Below are positions 2,405 through 16,489 of a DNA stretch of 64,000 nt, one piece after another. The position numbers and the translations under genes are program-made. Under the pieces are notes generated by a model that was not told where the DNA came from, did no database searches, and saw only the letters and a list, made by a program, of their open reading frames with translations. The stretch's first letter is position 1, and every line of letters begins with the position of its first letter. The stretch comes from Acidobacteriota bacterium (GTDB lineage Bacteria > Acidobacteriota > UBA6911): the NCBI GenBank assembly GCA_031271905.1, contig JAISUT010000054.1, positions 62,001-126,000 of the forward strand. Reading direction: 5' to 3'.

Positions 2405-3148
2405 CTATTTCAGCTTGAACCGGAATACGATTTCAGAGGCAACCGGAACCGGCTCGCCGCTGAGCATCGTCGGGGAGAACCGCCATTGCCGCGCAGCTTC
2501 CAATGCCGCCTGCCTCAACAGGGGATGGCCGCTCACGACCTCGCAATGCGTCACCCCGCCCTCTTCATCGACCAACATCTTGACGACCACCTCGCCTTCG
2601 ACGCGGGCGCGGCGCGCCATCTCGGGATAGTCCGGCGGTATCTTTTGAATAGCCTTTGCCTCCTGTACGCCGCCGCTGATATGGAGGACGGGTTCAGGCT
2701 TCGATGATGGCGGCGCAGGCGGGCGAGCATGGGGCTCCTGGTCGCGAAGAACCGTGGTCAGGATCGGCGTCACAGGCGTCGAGGAGATCAAACCGGGACC
2801 TCCGGCGACCCTGGTATCGACGACCGGTATCTGAAAGTCGGTATCATCCGGCGGGAGGATGACGCCATCGGGTATTAAGACCGGCTCCACGAACTTGCCA
2901 GTCGTTTGGACGACGTCGGCAACGACTGTCGGCTCCCGAGACGGCGCGGGCGGCGCAGGCGGGGCGGGCGCCGTCGGCGGCGCGATGAGGAATGTCAACA
3001 ATTCGCTCTCCGGCAAGATGCTTACGAAAATCAGCGGAGTGACCAGCAGGGCGAAGATGATCGCCCCTTCTACGACTAGCGCCATGACTACGGATGCGGC
3101 ACGGCGGTTTCCATCCTGTTTTCCGATTTCATTGAGGTCGTCAAACAT
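2405..3148 (-). CDS. TonB-family energy-transducing protein
   Basis: 247 residues. A short cytoplasmic start (MFDDLNEIGKQDGNRR) leads into one membrane anchor (ASVVMALVVEGAIIFALLVT). A proline-rich periplasmic linker follows (PPTAPAPPAPPAP), then a C-terminal TonB domain with the typical Y-P-E-M-A-R-R-A-R-V-E-G-E-V core and an A-x-x-A-A-R-Q-W-R-F-S-P segment. It would link inner-membrane proton-motive force to outer-membrane receptors, or act as a periplasmic partner of another system; no ExbB/ExbD or receptor is adjacent. I chose the start at 3148 because GGGGGA sits 5-6 bases before it, although the frame is open to 3181. A TTGACA on the minus strand (3256-3251) may belong to its promoter, but the -10 is poor. 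Confidence 0.85.
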   Translation of the reverse strand: MFDDLNEIGKQDGNRRAASVVMALVVEGAIIFALLVTPLIFVSILPESELLTFLIAPPTAPAPPAPPAPSREPTVVADVVQTTGKFVEPVLIPDGVILPPDDTDFQIPVVDTRVAGGPGLISSTPVTPILTTVLRDQEPHARPPAPPSSKPEPVLHISGGVQEAKAIQKIPPDYPEMARRARVEGEVVVKMLVDEEGGVTHCEVVSGHPLLRQAALEAARQWRFSPTMLSGEPVPVASEIVFRFKLK

Positions 3149-3378
3149 ATCGTCCCCCTTCCCGCCCATATGGTTGCGCATGGGCGCTTCCAGCGTTTGC
3201 AGTATTGAAACGACTTGTTGATTACGAGGCTACTATCGTTGCCGTAGACTTGTCAACAAAAAAATCAAAAAATCGCGAAACATTTTTACGGGTCATGCGT
3301 ATAAGCGAAATCCTATGCGTGGCGCGGACCGCCGATCCAATGCGGTGCGCGCATTTTCAGGTCTCATCATGGCATCTC

Positions 3379-3611
3379 GCCTTGAAGTAGGCGACGATCT
3401 CGGCGGCGGCCTTCGGCCCCACATACGGGGCCAGCTCGTCGAAGGCGGCCTGCTTGGCCCGCTCTAGGCTCCCGAACGCCCGCAGCAGCACCTTCTTGCG
3501 GACTTCGCCCACCCCCGGCACGTCCATCAGCTCCGAGTCGAAGTCGCGCAGCTCCCGCCGCTTCCGGTGGTAGGTCACCGCGAAGCGGTGCGCCTCGTCG
3601 CGCATCCGCTG
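3379..3611 (-). pseudogene. Duplicated 3' end of uvrC
   Basis: These ~233 bp match the last coding part of uvrC (6954-7186) with about six mismatches that I counted by eye. They encode the helix-hairpin-helix end (QRMRDEAHRF...EIVAYFKA). The copy has the same orientation as uvrC and is not attached to the rest of the gene. Upstream it runs into unrelated DNA with a short tandem repeat. Together the two copies bracket a 3.3-kb accessory islet, as expected if an element entered the 3' end of uvrC carrying its own replacement end, or if the islet arose by duplication. Confidence 0.85.
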
Positions 3612-3626
3612 TATGGGGAATCTTCG

Positions 3627-3658
3627 GTGGTTGTTTTTGTGGTTGTTTTTGTGGTTGG
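3627..3658. repeat. 12-bp tandem repeat at the islet border
   Basis: The unit GTGGTTGTTTTT occurs twice in full (3627-3638, 3639-3650) and then partially. It abuts the junction where uvrC similarity stops. Just beyond it GATTTCCCAA (3671-3680) is mirrored by its reverse complement at 3735-3744, a 10-bp inverted repeat that may mark an element end. Confidence 0.6.
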
Positions 3659-3785
3659 CAATAAGACGTTGATTTCCCAAGGAGATTGATTCAAAATCAC
3701 ACTCGCATGTCGTTTGCTCTGACGACAGGTTCTTTTGGGAAATCGGAAAATCAGTGCTTTCTTAATAATGTGGGGAGGATTTCAA

Positions 3786-3998
3786 ATGGATCTGAAAGCT
3801 ATTGAATTTGAAACGGTGTACAAAGATGGCGTCATCTCCGTCCCTGCGGAGTATCGGGCGAACATTGACGAAGCGCCTTTAAAAGTGATCGTCCTTCAGC
3901 CAGTTTCGCAAAAACCTAACAAGCCGTTGCGTTTTGACGCATTCAGAATCGACACCAGGGGCTTCAAGTTTGACCGGGAAGAGGCAAATGAGCGGTAA
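3786..3998 (+). CDS. Small antitoxin-like protein paired with a PIN toxin
   Basis: 70 residues (MDLKAIEFETVYKDGVISVP...). The first part resembles a short swapped-hairpin DNA-binding antitoxin in which G-V-I-x-V-P is a common element. The charged tail (F-K-F-D-R-E-E-A-N-E-R) would wrap the toxin. The start at 3786 has GGGGAGG seven bases upstream; the frame is open further but lacks a ribosome site. The stop overlaps the next gene's start by 11 bp, the usual translational coupling of toxin-antitoxin pairs. The family assignment rests mainly on context. Confidence 0.6.
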   Translation: MDLKAIEFETVYKDGVISVPAEYRANIDEAPLKVIVLQPVSQKPNKPLRFDAFRIDTRGFKFDREEANER

Positions 3999-4413
3999 AT
4001 CATTCATAGACACGAATTTACTTATATATTTGTACACGGACAAGGAACCCGGGAAAACAGCCGTTGCAACAAGAACAATAGCCGAGCATGACTGTGTCAT
4101 CAGCGTTCAGGTTATGAACGAGTTTTCTTCCGTGATGATGAAAAAATATGGCAAGAGACTACAACAGGTTTTAGCTGCAATGCAAGAGATATTGGAAAAC
4201 GTGATCGCTGTTCCCATTGGTGCGGAAACGACTTTGGAAGCACTGCGAGTCTGCGAGCAATATGGTTATTCTTATTATGATAGTTGCATCATTGCCGCCG
4301 CATTGATCAATGGTTGCGATATTCTTTTTACAGAAGAGGCGAAGCTGTATAAAGCCCGTCACGACAGGGAAAACCCGAAATTCCGGAAATTTAGAAATCA
4401 CTTGACCGTATGA
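3988..4413 (+). CDS. PIN-domain ribonuclease toxin (VapC-like)
   Basis: 141 residues. The PIN acidic residues are visible: Asp in FIDTNLLIYLY (near residue 7), Glu in VMNEFSSV, Asp in YYDSCIIAAAL, and a further acidic pair in DILFTEEAKLY. Length and motif spacing fit VapC toxins, magnesium-dependent RNases that cut tRNA or rRNA when the antitoxin is lost. The ATG at 3988 lies inside the end of the antitoxin gene. Base composition is poorer in G+C than the surrounding chromosome, as throughout this islet. Confidence 0.8.
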   Translation: MSGKSFIDTNLLIYLYTDKEPGKTAVATRTIAEHDCVISVQVMNEFSSVMMKKYGKRLQQVLAAMQEILENVIAVPIGAETTLEALRVCEQYGYSYYDSCIIAAALINGCDILFTEEAKLYKARHDRENPKFRKFRNHLTV

Positions 4414-4572
4414 ACGCATGAACTGTAAGATGAAGTTTGTAAAAAATTAGGGCGATTGGATATGGCTTCTAATGACAAAAACTTAGGGAAATGCTGATTA
4501 ATTCATTTTCGAGAAAAGGTGATGTTGAAAACAATACATTTGCAGCCATCAATTCTTCTGGTTTTCGAATAA
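4414..4572. other. Non-coding gap, possible lost 5' end of the DUF1016 gene
   Basis: AT-rich stretch with no convincing gene. It ends at a TAA (4570-4572) in the frame of the DUF1016 gene. Family members normally begin within this distance, so part of a 5' coding end may be missing or frame-broken here. Confidence 0.4.
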
Positions 4573-4662
4573 ATCAGCGCTTCCTTAGCACTGGACAATT
4601 CGGCGGTCTTTGAAGAGGTTGCCGCAATTATTGAGCGCGCCCGCGAAAACGCCTTCCGCGCC

Positions 4663-5601
4663 GTGAACCGCGAACTCATCTCCATGTATTGGGAAATCGG
4701 ACGGTACGTCAGCAAAAAATCGACCGCCGCCAATTGGGGAAAGTCTGTCGTCAAGGCGTTCTCGGAATTCATCCAGTCGCGCTATGTGGGGATACAAGGC
4801 TTTTCACCGCAAAACATCTGGCGAATGAAGCAATTTTATGAGACTTATGCCAACAACGAAAAACTCTCGCCACTGGTGAGAGAAATTAGTTGGACGAACA
4901 ATCTGTTGATTTTGATGGCGGCGAAGACCGATGAGGAGCGCGAATTTTATCTGCTGCTTTGCTTCAAAAACAATTACTCCAAGCGCGAATTGGAGCGGCA
5001 GATTGACAGCGGCTTGTTTGAGCGAACGATGATTTCCGATAAAAAAAACGAGTTGTTTCTTGCCCGTAGCACAGGGCTTTCCGCATTGCGCGACAGCTAT
5101 GTGCTGGAGTTCCTCGACATCCCCGAAAGCCATAAAGAAAAAGAACTGCGGAAGGCAATAACCACCAACCTCAAGAACTTCATATTGGAGTTCGGCAAGG
5201 ACTTCACCTTGGTAGGCGAAGAATACCGTGTGCAGGTCGGCAACACGGACTTTAACATCGACCTTTTGTTTTACAACCGCGAACTGTCCTGTCTGGTGGC
5301 TGTTGAATTAAAGGTTGGTCGCTTCAAGCCGGAACATCTCGGCCAACTTGAATTTTATCTCGAAGCCCTCGACCGCGATGTGAAAAAGCCGAATGAAAAT
5401 CCAAGCGTTGGGCTTATCCTCTGCGCTAAAAAAGATGATGCGGTCGTGGAGTACGCCCTGAGCCGCAGTATGTCGCCCGCCTTGATTGCGAACTACCAAA
5501 CTCATTTGCCGCAGAAGGCGTTGCTTGAAAACAAGCTGCGCGAACTGCGCGAACTCGCCGAGGCAGAAGGGTTGACAGATGGCGAGGAAAGCGATGGATA
5601 A
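4663..5601 (+). CDS. DUF1016/YhcG-family PD-(D/E)XK nuclease
   Basis: 312 residues from a GTG codon. The N-terminal helical part (MYWEIGRYVSKK, SPQNIWRMKQFYETY) is typical of DUF1016. The C-terminal nuclease core shows the catalytic Asp in FNIDLLFYNRELSC and the E-x-K of VAVELKVGRFKPEHLGQL. Such proteins accompany restriction and other defence loci. The open frame extends upstream to 4573 and encodes the conserved FEEVAAIIERARENAFRAV segment, but no ATG, GTG or TTG start lies in that extension. The true start is therefore unusual, or the 5' end is damaged. No ribosome site is seen at 4663. Confidence 0.8.
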   Translation: MNRELISMYWEIGRYVSKKSTAANWGKSVVKAFSEFIQSRYVGIQGFSPQNIWRMKQFYETYANNEKLSPLVREISWTNNLLILMAAKTDEEREFYLLLCFKNNYSKRELERQIDSGLFERTMISDKKNELFLARSTGLSALRDSYVLEFLDIPESHKEKELRKAITTNLKNFILEFGKDFTLVGEEYRVQVGNTDFNIDLLFYNRELSCLVAVELKVGRFKPEHLGQLEFYLEALDRDVKKPNENPSVGLILCAKKDDAVVEYALSRSMSPALIANYQTHLPQKALLENKLRELRELAEAEGLTDGEESDG

Positions 5602-5911: not shown

Positions 5912-6190
5912 ATGACTATTAATGAATTGGCAAAAATTCTTGCAAACATGTACGCTAATGCTGTTCGTGGTGAAAACAAAGGTGTGGTGCCACATATTTT
6001 TGGCATCAAATATGCCAGCGAAATCAAAAACAATTACTATTCCCCTAAAAGCATTATTGAAGTTGCACGAAAAACTTTTAGTTCTGATATACCAACATCT
6101 TATGGAACAGAAATATATAAAGGCACTAAGTTGGAAAAATATGTTACACTTAATCAGAAACACCTTGAAGATTTAATTGATAAGTCATAA
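5912..6190 (+). CDS. Small HTH-like protein of the accessory islet
   Basis: 92 residues (MTINELAKILANMYANAV...), AT-rich in codon use and preceded by AAAGGAG at good spacing. It looks like a small winged-helix-like protein of a type I vaguely know beside restriction and phage genes (HIFGIKYASEI, SYGTEIYKGTKLEKYV), but I cannot name a family with certainty. It is a plausible regulator or partner of the nuclease-like gene on the opposite strand, with which it converges. Confidence 0.5.
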   Translation: MTINELAKILANMYANAVRGENKGVVPHIFGIKYASEIKNNYYSPKSIIEVARKTFSSDIPTSYGTEIYKGTKLEKYVTLNQKHLEDLIDKS

Positions 6191-6361
6191 TAGTTGAAGC
6201 GTTTTTTGCAAAAAACATCTGGAATGGCAATCTCTCAACTCGTTTGCGTGGGTTCGAAAGACACATGGTGTGTCGATTGTCGGATGTTCATACCGCATTA
6301 ACGCAGTTATTGAAATATAGTGGAAGGATTGCAAGCCGTTCGCCATTTCCTTCGTTTTCAA
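6191..6361. other. Convergent intergenic region
   Basis: 171 bp between two convergent islet genes; AT-rich, with no feature I can support. Confidence 0.3.
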
Positions 6362-6898
6362 TTAATAGCCAAATATAAATAATCCTTTTACATTTGTATA
6401 ATTACCAATTGAAAAAAAAGAGCTGAGACGATTACACACTTGCTGATAGGCATTATATCCTTTTTTTTCTCTGTTGTGCTTCAACATTTTAGGAACGGCT
6501 AAAAACAAATAGTCGGCGTAATCGCAGATATGGCACTTCCACAAATCAAGCATGTCCATATTGTTCATAATGGTTTTGCCCCGCTCAACCTCAAATATTA
6601 TTCCACTATCCTTTATTTTTAGATAATAGTCTGGGCGTAAAAGTTTGTTTTTATAATTCGCAAACAGACCAGTTTTTTCGTCAGAAAAACCAATTGTGGA
6701 GAGATGTCGCAAGAATACATCTTGAACATCCTTACTATTAGAGCCAGGTTGATTTGCGTCATAAATCGCATCTAGCACTTCTGGTCTATTTAGATATCTC
6801 AACAAATCATTTGCAATTTCTTCTACAATATTGAAAATTTCTTCGTTTTTATTAGGAACAGAATAACACGTCATCTCGATATTATTATCATCTGCCAT
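6362..6898 (-). CDS. Restriction-endonuclease-like PD-(D/E)XK protein
   Basis: 178 residues, strongly AT-rich. After a helical N-terminal half comes LLRPDYYLKIKDSGIIFEVERGKT: a Pro-Asp, a turn, then Glu-Val-Glu and Arg-Gly-Lys. This is the layout of a PD-(D/E)XK nuclease core and recalls BglII-type enzymes, where E-x-E/Q replaces E-x-K. A following helix-strand (LWKCHICDYADYLFLAVPKM) also fits that fold. No methyltransferase is adjacent, so a standard restriction-modification pair is absent. Possible roles are an orphan nuclease, part of a defence module with the nearby HTH gene, or a relic. Function is inferred from motif layout only. Confidence 0.45.
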   Translation of the reverse strand: MADDNNIEMTCYSVPNKNEEIFNIVEEIANDLLRYLNRPEVLDAIYDANQPGSNSKDVQDVFLRHLSTIGFSDEKTGLFANYKNKLLRPDYYLKIKDSGIIFEVERGKTIMNNMDMLDLWKCHICDYADYLFLAVPKMLKHNREKKGYNAYQQVCNRLSSFFSIGNYTNVKGLFIFGY

Positions 6899-6946
6899 TT
6901 CTTTGTTTGTCTCCTAGTTCTGGTTCCACGATTTTTATAGACATCG

Positions 6947-8767
6947 TCACTTGGCTTTGAAGTAGGCGACGATCTCGGCGGCGGCCTTCGGCCCCACATA
7001 CGGGGCCAGCTCGTCGAAGGCGGCCTGCTTCACCCGCTCCAGGCTCCCGAACGCCCGCAGCAGCACCTTCTTGCGGACTTCGCCCACACCCGGCACGTCC
7101 ATCAGCTCCGAGTCGAAGTCGCGCAGCTCCCGCCGTTTCCGGTGGTAGGTCACCGCGAAGCGGTGCGCCTCGTCGCGCATCCGCTGGATCAGGTGCAGCA
7201 CGGGCGAGTCCTTCGGCAGCTCCACCGGCGCGTCCTCCCGCCCCTTCACGAAAAGCAGCTCCTCGCGCTTGGCGACCGCCGCCACCTGCTGGTTCTCCAA
7301 GCCCAGGTCGTCCAGCGCCGCCGCCGCCGCCGAGAGCTGCCCCTTGCCGCCGTCGATGAGCACCAGGTCGGGCAGCTCCCCCGCGTCGTCCTCCAGCACG
7401 TTCTCGTAGTGCCGCCGCACCACCTCGCGCATGGCGGCGAAGTCGTCCGGCATCTTCTCGTTTTCTATCTTGAACTTGCGGTAGGCGCCCCGCTTCATCT
7501 CGCCGTCCAGGCAGACGACCATGCTGGCGACCGTCTCCGCCCCCTGGATGTGCGAGATGTCGAACGTCTCGATGCGGCGCGGCGGCGCGGGCAGCCCCAG
7601 CGCCTCCTGCAACGGCTGGAGCAGCGCCTCCCCCTTCGGCTTCATGACGCGGAAGCGCGTCTCGAACGCCACCCCCGCGTTGCGCGTGACCAAGTCCATC
7701 ATCTCCGACTTCAGGCCGCGGCGCGGGGAGCGGATGGCGACCTTGCGCCCCTTGCGCTCGGAGAACCATTCCTCCAATATCTCCGCGTCCTCGATGTCCA
7801 CCGGGATGTAGATCTCCTTCGGGACGAAGTTGTCCGAGAGGTAATACTGCAAAAGCGCCTCGGAGAAGAACTCCTCCGGGTCGAAGGAGATCAGGTCCTC
7901 CCAGTAGAACTCGCGCCGCCCCATCACCCGGCCCCCGCGCATGGCGAAGACCTCCAGCGCGAGCCGCGCCCCCTCCTGGTGGTAGCCGAAGATGTCGCAG
8001 TCGTCCTGCCCGTCGAGCGCCATCTTCTGCCGCTCGGACACCTCGCGCATCATCGCGGCCCAGTCGCGGTAGACGGCGGCCGCCTCGTAGTTCGTCGCCT
8101 CGGCGGCGTCGGCCATGCGCTTTTCCAGCGACCGCACAAGCTCGTCGGTCTTGCCCGAAAGCAAGAGCTTCGCGTCCTCCACCGCCCGCCGGTACTCCTC
8201 GGGGGTGCACAGACCGCTGGCGCAGGGGCCGAGGCAGCGCTTCATCTGGTAGTCGAGGCAGGGGCGCGGCAGCGTGCCGTCGATCTCCAGGCTGCAGGTG
8301 CGCAGGCGGAAATAGCGGTTGACCAGCTTGATCGTCCGGCGCGCGTAGCTGGCGGGCAGGAACGGGCCGTAGTAGAGCGAGCCGTCCTTGCGGATGCGCC
8401 GCGTGATGAAGATGCGCGGGAACGCCTCGCCCACCGTGAGCTTGAGGTAGGGAAAGCTCTTGTCGTCCTTCAGCTTGATGTTGTAGCGCGGCTGGTGCTT
8501 CTTGACCAGGTTCGATTCGAGTATGAGCGCCTCGACCTCGCTGTCGGTGACGATGTACTCCAAGTCGGCGATCTCGGCGACCAGGTGCCGCGTCTTCAGG
8601 TCGTGGTCGCGGCTCTCCTGGAAATAGGAGCGGACGCGCGAACGCAGGGATCGCGCCTTGCCGACGTAGATGATCTTCCGGTCCGCGTCCCGGTAGAGGT
8701 AGACCCCCGGCTCCGCAGGCAGGTTGTCCAGCTTCGGGTTCAAGACCGCCGCAAATTCCGCGTTCAC
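6947..8767 (-). CDS. uvrC: UvrC, excinuclease ABC subunit C
   Basis: 606 residues, normal for the family. The order is an N-terminal GIY-YIG nuclease domain (AEPGVYLYRD, IIYVGKARSLRSRVRSYF) for the 3' incision, the Cys-containing region C-L-D-Y-Q-M-K-R-C-L-G-P-C, a UVR segment (residues ~195-240) that binds UvrB, an RNase H-like domain (VLIDGGKGQL, ~residue 480) for the 5' incision, and C-terminal helix-hairpin-helix motifs (DVPGVGEVRKKVLLRAFGS) for DNA binding. It performs the dual incision of nucleotide excision repair in the cytoplasm. Its last ~230 bp are duplicated beyond the islet at 3379-3611. It is divergent from aroK. Confidence 0.97.
   Translation of the reverse strand: MNAEFAAVLNPKLDNLPAEPGVYLYRDADRKIIYVGKARSLRSRVRSYFQESRDHDLKTRHLVAEIADLEYIVTDSEVEALILESNLVKKHQPRYNIKLKDDKSFPYLKLTVGEAFPRIFITRRIRKDGSLYYGPFLPASYARRTIKLVNRYFRLRTCSLEIDGTLPRPCLDYQMKRCLGPCASGLCTPEEYRRAVEDAKLLLSGKTDELVRSLEKRMADAAEATNYEAAAVYRDWAAMMREVSERQKMALDGQDDCDIFGYHQEGARLALEVFAMRGGRVMGRREFYWEDLISFDPEEFFSEALLQYYLSDNFVPKEIYIPVDIEDAEILEEWFSERKGRKVAIRSPRRGLKSEMMDLVTRNAGVAFETRFRVMKPKGEALLQPLQEALGLPAPPRRIETFDISHIQGAETVASMVVCLDGEMKRGAYRKFKIENEKMPDDFAAMREVVRRHYENVLEDDAGELPDLVLIDGGKGQLSAAAAALDDLGLENQQVAAVAKREELLFVKGREDAPVELPKDSPVLHLIQRMRDEAHRFAVTYHRKRRELRDFDSELMDVPGVGEVRKKVLLRAFGSLERVKQAAFDELAPYVGPKAAAEIVAYFKAK
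6954..7186. repeat. uvrC 3'-end segment shared with 3379-3611 (direct repeat)
   Basis: This is the intact-gene copy of the ~233-bp duplicated segment. The copies lie 3575 bp apart in the same orientation, so homologous recombination between them could delete the islet and still leave a complete uvrC. Confidence 0.85.
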
Positions 8768-14259: not shown

Positions 14260-15408
14260 ATGTCGCCGATGAATTTCCGAAAACTGGCCGACGGGCGCGG
14301 GGAGGACGCGCGTAGCCGGATATTGCGCGGGATTTACGAGGAAAACCAGGCGCTGGGGGACTTCACCGGAACGCTAAAGAAAAAATCCGCCCGCGGCGCG
14401 GCGTGGCAGGCGCGGCAATGGATTTCCATCGGCGCGCTGCTCATCGCCCTGGTCGGGCTGGCGACGCCGGTGTTCGTCAACCGCAACGGGGGGGAGACGG
14501 CGGCGGCTGTCACCGCGCCCACCCCTCAAGCCAAGGCGGTGGCGCCGGCGACGGCCGGAGAGGCCGCGGCGGAGCCGCCGGTGGCGGTCACGACCGCAGT
14601 GCCGGCGACGCCCCCTGCGCCAACGGCGACGACGCCCCGCGTCAGGGTCGCAAACGCCCGCGAGGTGGCGGGGCTGGAGATACTGGACGACCTGCCGCTC
14701 AGCCAAATGCTCGACCTGGGCATCCGGCGCATCGTGGTGGACGCCGGACACGGGGGGAGCGACAAGGGCGCCGTCGGCAAGGATGGGACGATGGAGAAGG
14801 ACGTGACGCTCGCCATCGCCCTCAAGTTGCGCGACCAGCTCAAGGAGCAGGGGATCGCCGACATCATCATGACCCGGACGGACGACAGCACGGTGGCGTT
14901 GCACGAGAGGGTGGACTTGGCGAAGGCGGCGAAGGCGGACATGTTCATCTCCATACATGTCAACTCCCTGCCCCGCTCGTCGAAGAACGTCGTCGAGACT
15001 TTTTACTTCGGGCCGTCCAAGGATCAGAGGACGTTGGAGCTGGCGGATCAGGAGAACAAGGGTTCCAAGTACGGGTTGAGCGATTTCACGGAGATCGTCG
15101 CCCGGCTCGGGAAGGCGATGAAGTTGCAGGAGTCGAAGAAGTTGGCGGAAGCCATCCAGCGAGACCTCTACCGCAGCGGCCGGGAGCTGGATCCGGACGC
15201 CATCGACACCGGGGTGAAAAGGGCGCCGTTCGTAGTGTTGCTGGGGCTGGACGTCCCGTCCGTCCTGGCGGAGGTTTCCTGCATGAGCAGCGAAAAGGCG
15301 GAGCGTTATTTGAATTCCGAGGAAGACCAGGGGCGCATCGCCGCAGCCATCGCGTCGGGCGTCATGCGTTATCAAAACAAGGGGGCGGTGAAAAATGAAA
15401 GGGAATGA
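14260..15408 (+). CDS. N-acetylmuramoyl-L-alanine amidase (Amidase_3), membrane-anchored
   Basis: About 382 residues from 14260. A cytoplasmic start and one transmembrane segment (SIGALLIALVGLATPVFV) are followed by an Ala/Pro/Thr-rich periplasmic linker and a zinc amidase domain. Zinc and catalytic motifs are visible: VVDAGHGGSDKGAVG (His), M-E-K-D-V (Glu), ISIHVNSLP (His) and a late VLAEVSCMSS (Glu). It hydrolyses the amide between MurNAc and the stem peptide during daughter-cell separation. GGAAGGGGG is ten bases before this ATG; an earlier TTG has no such support. Its last 14 bp overlap the MamK-like actin gene, suggesting coupled translation. Confidence 0.88.
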   Translation: MSPMNFRKLADGRGEDARSRILRGIYEENQALGDFTGTLKKKSARGAAWQARQWISIGALLIALVGLATPVFVNRNGGETAAAVTAPTPQAKAVAPATAGEAAAEPPVAVTTAVPATPPAPTATTPRVRVANAREVAGLEILDDLPLSQMLDLGIRRIVVDAGHGGSDKGAVGKDGTMEKDVTLAIALKLRDQLKEQGIADIIMTRTDDSTVALHERVDLAKAAKADMFISIHVNSLPRSSKNVVETFYFGPSKDQRTLELADQENKGSKYGLSDFTEIVARLGKAMKLQESKKLAEAIQRDLYRSGRELDPDAIDTGVKRAPFVVLLGLDVPSVLAEVSCMSSEKAERYLNSEEDQGRIAAAIASGVMRYQNKGAVKNERE

Positions 15409-16489
15409 CGAGTCGCAAGAGTATCAGGACAGTGTGCAGGACAACGAGCAACCACAGGAGGAAGAGCAGGCGCAAATGAAAGAGAAAGACAAAGTGTTGT
15501 ATGTGGGCATCGACCTGGGGACGTCGCGCAGCGCGATCTCCTCCGGCAACGGCAACCGCGAATGGATCGAGAGCTACGTGGGTTGGCCGAAGGACTTCAT
15601 CGCCGAGAAAGTCCTCGGCAAACCCGTGCTGTTCGGCAACGAGGCGCTGGAGAACCGGCTCTCGCTGGATGTCTGCCGCCCGCTCGACCGGGGCGTCATC
15701 CGCAAGGGGATCGAGGGGAGCGAGAAGGCGGTCAAGGAGATCATCCGGCACCTGATCGAGCAGGTCCACCCCGACTCCAATTGCAGCATCAACGCCGTGG
15801 TCGGCGTCCCCGCCGAGTCGCTCAACAGCAACAAGCTGGCGATCAAGGACGCGGTGTCCGGCTACGTCAACTCGCTGATGGTGGTCTCCGAGCCTTTCAC
15901 CATCGCTTACGGCGCGGATCTCCTGAACCACTCGCTGGTGATCGACATCGGCGCCGGCACCACCGACTTCTGCGTCATGCACGGCATGATCCCCTCAGAG
16001 GACGACCAGAAGACCCTGTTCACGGCGGGCGACTACATCGACGAGCAGTTGCTGAACGGCCTGTTGCAGAAGTTCCCCGGCTGCAAGCTCAACGCCTACA
16101 TGGCGCGCCAGTTCAAAGAGGCGCACAGCTTCGTGGGCGCGCTGGACGAGCCGGTCGTGGTGGAGTTGTCGGTCAACGGCAAGCTGGTGCGCCAAGACAT
16201 CAAAGAGGAGATGCGCCGGGCTTGCGAAAGCATCGTCCCGCCGATGGTGGAGACGGTCATCGAGCTGGTCGCCAAGGTCGAGCCGGAGTTCCAGGAGAAG
16301 GTCAAGAAGAACATCGTGCTGGGCGGCGGCGGCAGCCTGATCCGCGGCCTGTCCTCCTACCTCGAAAACCAGTTGGGCGAATATGGCAACTACTACGTGC
16401 GCTGCGTGTCCGACCCGCTGTTCGGCGGCGCGGACGGCGCGCTGAAGCTGGCGCAGGACATGCCCGCCCGCTATTGGGAGTCGCTGTAA
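15395..16489 (+). CDS. MamK-like bacterial actin
   Basis: 364 residues. The actin/Hsp70 ATPase elements are present: phosphate 1 loop GIDLGTSRSAIS (~39-50), phosphate 2 loop VIDIGAGTTDFC (~185) and adenosine loop VLGGGGSLIRGL (~310). Away from these motifs it resembles MamK more than MreB (VGWPKDFIAEKVLGKP, DDQKTLFTAGDYIDEQL, a final D-M-P-A-R-Y-W). MamK forms filaments that position magnetosomes, but no other magnetosome gene is here. Overlap with an amidase gene suggests a role in cell-wall or division geometry. The acidic 27-residue leader is unusual; an alternative start is at 15476. Confidence 0.85.
   Translation: MKGNDESQEYQDSVQDNEQPQEEEQAQMKEKDKVLYVGIDLGTSRSAISSGNGNREWIESYVGWPKDFIAEKVLGKPVLFGNEALENRLSLDVCRPLDRGVIRKGIEGSEKAVKEIIRHLIEQVHPDSNCSINAVVGVPAESLNSNKLAIKDAVSGYVNSLMVVSEPFTIAYGADLLNHSLVIDIGAGTTDFCVMHGMIPSEDDQKTLFTAGDYIDEQLLNGLLQKFPGCKLNAYMARQFKEAHSFVGALDEPVVVELSVNGKLVRQDIKEEMRRACESIVPPMVETVIELVAKVEPEFQEKVKKNIVLGGGGSLIRGLSSYLENQLGEYGNYYVRCVSDPLFGGADGALKLAQDMPARYWESL

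Follow-up and report, generated by a model that had tools for sequence, protein, structure and literature searches.

The predicted nuclease gene and its AT-rich island

The window, by which we mean the whole 64,000-nucleotide stretch of DNA that was analysed, carries a small open reading frame whose ATG lies at 6898 and whose stop codon ends at 6362 on the minus strand (178 codons, frame intact), with an AGGAG-like sequence, in our reading, 12 nt before the start codon (Table 1). The predicted protein contains LRPDYYLK and, further on, GIIFEVERGKT. An earlier sequence-only reading had remarked on this layout, P-D and then FEVERGK in an AT-rich gene, and the description holds on both counts: LRPD and E-V-E-R-G-K are present in the 178-aa minus-strand frame, and the gene region has a G+C content of 34-38% (500-base bins) versus approximately 64% in the contig stretches that were counted.

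Table 1. Positions in the window of the nuclease gene, its conserved codons and the neighbouring features.
Feature	Position	Strand	Basis
Solitary nuclease gene (178-aa, BglII/BamHI-fold; predicted active site P89-D90, E103-x-E105)	6362..6898	-	ORF, alignment, predicted fold
Codons L87-R88-P89-D90, conserved LRPD block	6629..6640	-	computed from ORF start at 6898
Codons E103-V104-E105, conserved E-x-E	6584..6592	-	computed from ORF start at 6898
uvrC (our reading); stop 48 bp before the nuclease ATG	6947..8767	-	ORF reading
uvrC 3' end, right copy of 236-bp direct repeat (97%)	6954..7189		repeat comparison
uvrC 3'-end repeat, left copy; left border of AT-rich island	3379..3614		repeat comparison
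HTH_73 protein (PF24718), 92-aa, convergent with the nuclease	5912..6190	+	Pfam
DUF1016/YhcG-type gene (PF17761, PF06250; PADLOC PDC-S02), start codon uncertain	4600..5601	+	Pfam, PADLOC
PIN-domain toxin-like gene (PF01850), island neighbour	3934..4413	+	Pfam
ORF of 87 aa preceding the PIN gene; position alone suggests an antitoxin	3735..3998	+	no Pfam match above cut-off

Of the genes in an AT-rich stretch bounded by two copies of the 3' end of uvrC, the nuclease gene lies furthest to the right; the two copies extend over 236 bp and differ at 7 positions, six of them third codon positions. No integrase gene was seen by ORF reading in the 3.3 kb between the copies, and a search of the host for an integron integrase gave only sub-threshold matches of a kind that control genomes gave as well. 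The arrangement looks as if an element had integrated and carried in a uvrC end of its own. The end of uvrC is a possible integration site, here framing a 3.3-kb AT-rich island. With no intrinsic terminator detected in the interval 6100-7200, where the number of promoter-like sites (4, against a shuffled mean of 2.2) is also near expectation, the nuclease gene may be expressed by read-through from uvrC. Pfam confirms both neighbours noted earlier, the small HTH-like gene (PF24718) and the DUF1016 one (PF17761 and PF06250), and HTH_73 was not found named in the literature searched. Elsewhere in the window, at 15395-16489, there is an MreB-family actin-like gene (PF06723), which we take to read like the magnetosome gene MamK.

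Predicted fold and conserved residues

The protein has no naming match in Pfam, NCBIfam, PADLOC or the PDB sequences, no PADLOC model covers the family, and PHROGs returned a single weak and unnamed match (E 0.047). The profile of the family (A4) likewise retrieved no BglII/BamHI-type enzyme from the PDB sequences; the only low E-values obtained there came from numerous weak matches to designed repeat proteins, in which no individual stretch passed, and were discarded as artefacts. An AlphaFold2 model built from six sequences is of good quality (pLDDT 86.2, pTM 0.87, weakest at 142-144), and was used in preference to a poor two-sequence model (pLDDT 57). Foldseek found six PDB matches to it at E<=0.001, all of them chains of OkrAI, BglII or BamHI, and no match at the same threshold in a viral library of predicted folds. 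When the structures were realigned, the top 11 rows were again BglII, BstYI, OkrAI and BamHI (Z 12.8-9.5, with 139-155 residues aligned at 3.3-3.9 A), and the next, unrelated row had a Z of 7.3, a level that the tool calls common. With a Z of 12.8 to BglII (148 of the 178 residues, 3.4 A) and of 11.2 to BamHI, the model is assigned to the same fold as these enzymes. The earlier suggestion of a restriction-like nuclease of the PD-(D/E)XK type, and of the BglII type in particular, is thereby supported: the comparison with BglII-type folds that it had called for yielded a confident model whose best matches are BglII, BstYI, OkrAI and BamHI rather than an unrelated fold.

At the level of sequence, hhalign of the family profile against the single sequences of BamHI and BglII gave E-values of 0.38 and 0.24, neither of which is significant; as such, and with no sequence match in Pfam or the PDB, kinship to these enzymes rests on the predicted fold together with the register of the motifs. 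Since the protein matches no curated Pfam or NCBIfam family, we describe it as having the fold, and do not place it in a named BglII/BamHI sequence family.

Alignment of the six intact sequences described below reveals 17 invariant columns, including D90, E103, V104, E105, G107 and N113, while P89 is kept in five of the six; the blocks LRPD(Y/F) and WKCH.C are common to the five closer sequences. The E-V-E core that had been read from FEVERGK is thus invariant (6/6), but the lysine that ends this string is not conserved, K108 giving way to Q in L013 and to R in the distant relative, so that the conserved acidic core is better written as D...E-x-E. The catalytic residues of BamHI are D94, E111 and E113. 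In the hhalign alignment to BamHI, which is not statistically significant, D90, E103 and E105 fall in register with these three, RPDYY lying on PIDVY and FEVERGK on MEFETGN. E105 occupies the position at which many such enzymes have a lysine, a residue that is replaced by E in BamHI and by Q in BglII (PMC4081073), and the pattern D...E-x-(E/Q) of the BglII/BamHI structural group is present, through D90, E103 and E105, in all six sequences. Taken together, the model and the motif register argue that the nuclease very probably has the fold of BglII and BamHI and a D...ExE site like that of BamHI, and would be a metal-dependent DNA endonuclease of BamHI-like chemistry.

The loop that follows the P136 strand (about 138-149) varies in both sequence and length among the relatives, and the DNA site of the BglII/BamHI enzymes is therefore not transferable to this nuclease. 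The sites of BglII and BstYI centre on GATC. That of BamHI is GGATCC (PMC4081073). In 142 kb of host contig the observed/expected ratios were 0.85 for GATC, 0.56 for CGATCG, 0.61 for AGATCT, 0.79 for TGATCA and 1.12 for GGATCC, and in 200 kb of genome G1427, which carries a relative, the four GATC hexamers stood at 0.55-1.08 of expectation; neither sequence displays a strong avoidance of NGATCN hexamers, and in the host other palindromes fall far below these values (CAGCTG 0.07, AAGCTT 0.11). The palindrome statistics thus give no support to a GATC-type cut site, and the gene may have arrived too recently to have left a trace in its host. As a separate observation, contig C61 of the host, which holds the window and loci L044-L047, displays a strong shortage of CAGCTG, ACGCGT, AAGCTT, GTCGAC, CTAG and GGCC.

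Relatives and their settings

Five intact relatives were found elsewhere, all aligning over the core, so that the motif layout is more than a chance occurrence. They are a Nitrosomonadales MAG protein (L002, 45% identity to the window protein), proteins of genomes G668 (L004/L005, 53%) and G1427 (L013/L015, 44%), one of the viral contig IMGVR_UViG_2894460714_000004 (L007, 40%), and a distant one of genome G1250 (L014/L016, 25%, E 7.8e-5). A further relative (L012), decayed and broken in frame, comes from G1070, a genome of 1.6 Mb that shares its order with G396. Relatives are rare (four clear, one distant and one decayed): in overlapping samples of genomes the positives numbered 1/100, 1/396 and 1/38, in all three the window's own genome only, and in further overlapping samples 2/398, 1/78, 2/399 (one decayed) and 3/350 (one distant). 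A search of genome contigs yielded one relative out of 24 candidate stretches, and the searches of viral contigs found a relative on one contig, several of them finding none. The distant relative (P0004), used as the query, found its own genome only among 94 and had no match in an E. coli genome search, and phage and plasmid collections otherwise yielded no member of the family, one search having matched ankyrin repeats only. A match on a Granulicella plasmid (22.9% identity, E 0.2) was dropped, as it sits among polysaccharide genes.

The settings of these copies are diverse. In L002 the nuclease stands second among the ORFs of an integron-type array, preceded by a 70-nt attC-like site (3290-3359) and followed by further sites near 3906-3971 and 4291-4353; each of these three folds better than all 200 of its shuffles (z -5.0, -5.9 and -5.6), while a fourth, near 4824-4906, folds unremarkably (z -1.5) but repeats the core of the first at 91%. 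The same array (2567-4827) includes an ORF of 242 aa that matches nothing in Pfam, one of 85 aa resembling a zinc ribbon, and one of 131 aa with weak similarity to the Mrr endonuclease. The L002 gene is thus bounded by attC-like sites whereas the window copy is not, and scans of the window, L005, L015, L016 and L007 copies found no such site. Among the six settings, a single one is a clear integron array. By our readings, the relative in L015 starts 22 bp behind glmS, and that in L005 lies between an AddB-like gene and purA. In G1250 (L014) the gene overlaps an upstream 78-aa ORF by 4 nt. The viral copy is the C-terminal nuclease domain of a 402-aa prophage protein (L007 7245-8453) with N-terminal ankyrin repeats, encoded antisense within a capsid/tail module, between DUF6441 and the capsid E gene. 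The nuclease gene most likely travels on mobile DNA as a lone gene, in an integron (L002), a prophage (L007), behind glmS (L015) and in an island (the window).

The absence of a methyltransferase had been noted earlier for the window, and we too saw none adjoining the nuclease gene. The amino-methyltransferase motif [NDS]PP[YFW] does not occur in any ORF of at least 150 aa within the window, and by motif scan and ORF reading no methyltransferase was seen beside the nuclease there or at the five other intact loci, the one DPPY match in L007 being about 6 kb from the nuclease in a stretch of tail genes. The linked cognate methyltransferase of a Type II restriction-modification (R-M) system was accordingly seen at 0/6 loci.

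Probable function of the nuclease and comparison with known systems

In the mechanism that we propose, D90 and E103-x-E105 would form a metal-binding site of the BamHI kind, with which the protein, probably as a dimer, would cut double-stranded DNA in a presumed role in defence, and the host would have to be spared somehow. With moderate confidence, we read it as a solitary, mobile dsDNA endonuclease of BglII/BamHI fold without a methyltransferase, most likely a stand-alone barrier against incoming DNA. Of the parts of this reading, that the nuclease is active in the cell appears probable, and that it is used against incoming DNA has what we consider a little better than an even chance.

Several other explanations must be weighed against this one. 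The gene could supply the endonuclease of an ordinary Type II R-M system that has its methyltransferase at a distant place in the genome ('separated') or has had it replaced by a resident one; separated systems are documented, as 57 of 272 solitary restriction endonucleases were assigned a distant methyltransferase in the part of PMC3488263 drawn on here. The window's host does have two PF01555 matches elsewhere, but one of these methyltransferases (N6/N4) adjoins a ScaI-type endonuclease (G000:C18, locus L025 972-2304) and is therefore already paired. PF01555, the one methyltransferase family searched, was matched in three of five genomes and in neither G668, which may be incomplete, nor G1427. 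As the solitary state furthermore recurs at all six loci, we consider a separated system unlikely. We give a still smaller chance to an active nuclease with another job, that of a conditional genome-damaging effector in abortive infection or a weapon of one element against another; the ankyrin-fused, antisense copy inside the phage structural module would suit such a role, as would the PIN-type toxin and DUF1016 genes that share the window's island, but five of the six intact copies are bare single domains and no neighbour in the window recurs beside the others. That the gene is a decaying or inactive remnant without present function is very unlikely: a decayed relative does exist in G1070, and some solitary restriction endonucleases are inactive according to the portion of PMC3488263 that we used, yet the frame here is intact, a ribosome-binding-like site is present, and the catalytic residues are kept in all six intact relatives at identities of 25-53%.

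The sequence-only reading had proposed that the nuclease, the HTH_73 gene and the DUF1016 gene constitute one undescribed defence module, and this we now regard as extremely improbable. The three do lie within 2.3 kb of one AT-rich island, and the DUF1016 gene matches a PADLOC candidate (PDC-S02); however, the trio is split between opposite strands, the HTH gene being convergent with the nuclease, and neither neighbour was found at the other five intact loci, which span only 5-16 kb. The neighbourhood check that had been suggested for the HTH/nuclease pair, run over these five loci, found an HTH relative at 0/5, and at E<=0.01 phmmer found no relative there of DUF1016, HTH_73, the PIN gene or its upstream ORF.

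Returning to a stand-alone barrier as the preferred reading, our first guess as to how self-DNA would be spared, and a tentative one, is that the nuclease confines its attack to DNA whose mark or state is foreign, in the manner of Type IV enzymes. Protection by an unlinked and unrelated host methyltransferase ranks next and is doubtful, and the remaining share falls to expression that is weak or needs a trigger, to an inactive protein or to a different role. A stronger form of the first guess would hold that the family is solitary by nature and not through loss of a partner, that is, a single-gene cassette with its own discrimination of self from non-self that cuts only DNA of foreign modification or state; we believe this to be rather unlikely, but if it is true, the BamHI fold would be serving a Type IV-like purpose. 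In any case, a restriction enzyme without a methyltransferase should poison its host, yet the catalytic residues are preserved throughout these few proteins from distant bacteria, and their genes move unaccompanied. An active enzyme would make a compact model for studying how cutters of the BamHI type leave the DNA of their own cell intact, and a single-gene type would join the integron defence genes already on record; an inactive one would exemplify a repurposed restriction fold.

The closest known proteins are BglII, BstYI, BamHI and OkrAI (PDB 1d2i, 1sdo/2p0j, 2bam/1bam and 3odh, respectively), which the predicted fold resembles over nearly the whole chain; the likeness to BamHI extends to the D...E-x-E site, with E in the place of lysine. 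Unlike these enzymes, the window nuclease has a shorter chain, no significant sequence similarity to them and no partner methyltransferase seen beside it. Type IV modification-dependent nucleases are also described (PMC12707154, in the part consulted), whereas the enzymes that lead the nuclease's fold list are Type II. Integrons are known to carry anti-phage genes (work cited in PMC12444791), and the L002 copy, a single gene between attC-like sites, resembles such cassettes, unlike the window, L005, L015, L016 and L007 copies with no attC-like site. In the literature searched on BamHI-group enzymes, solitary restriction and integron-borne restriction, of which the portions consulted form a part, the family was not found. 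The nearest parallel is to the solitary Type II endonucleases, which likewise have no methyltransferase gene nearby: in the sections of Ershova et al. (2012, PMC3488263) that we drew on, the 272 analysed comprised, apart from those with a distant methyltransferase, 99 fragments and 116 left open, and the 21 Type II cases without methyltransferase remnants all belonged to orthologous groups that include ordinary R-M systems, whereas in the present family, a small sample, 0/6 loci pair the nuclease with a methyltransferase. Solitary restriction genes are therefore already known, and what appears to be new here is a restriction-fold family that is methyltransferase-free in every copy seen and that recurs in mobile settings.
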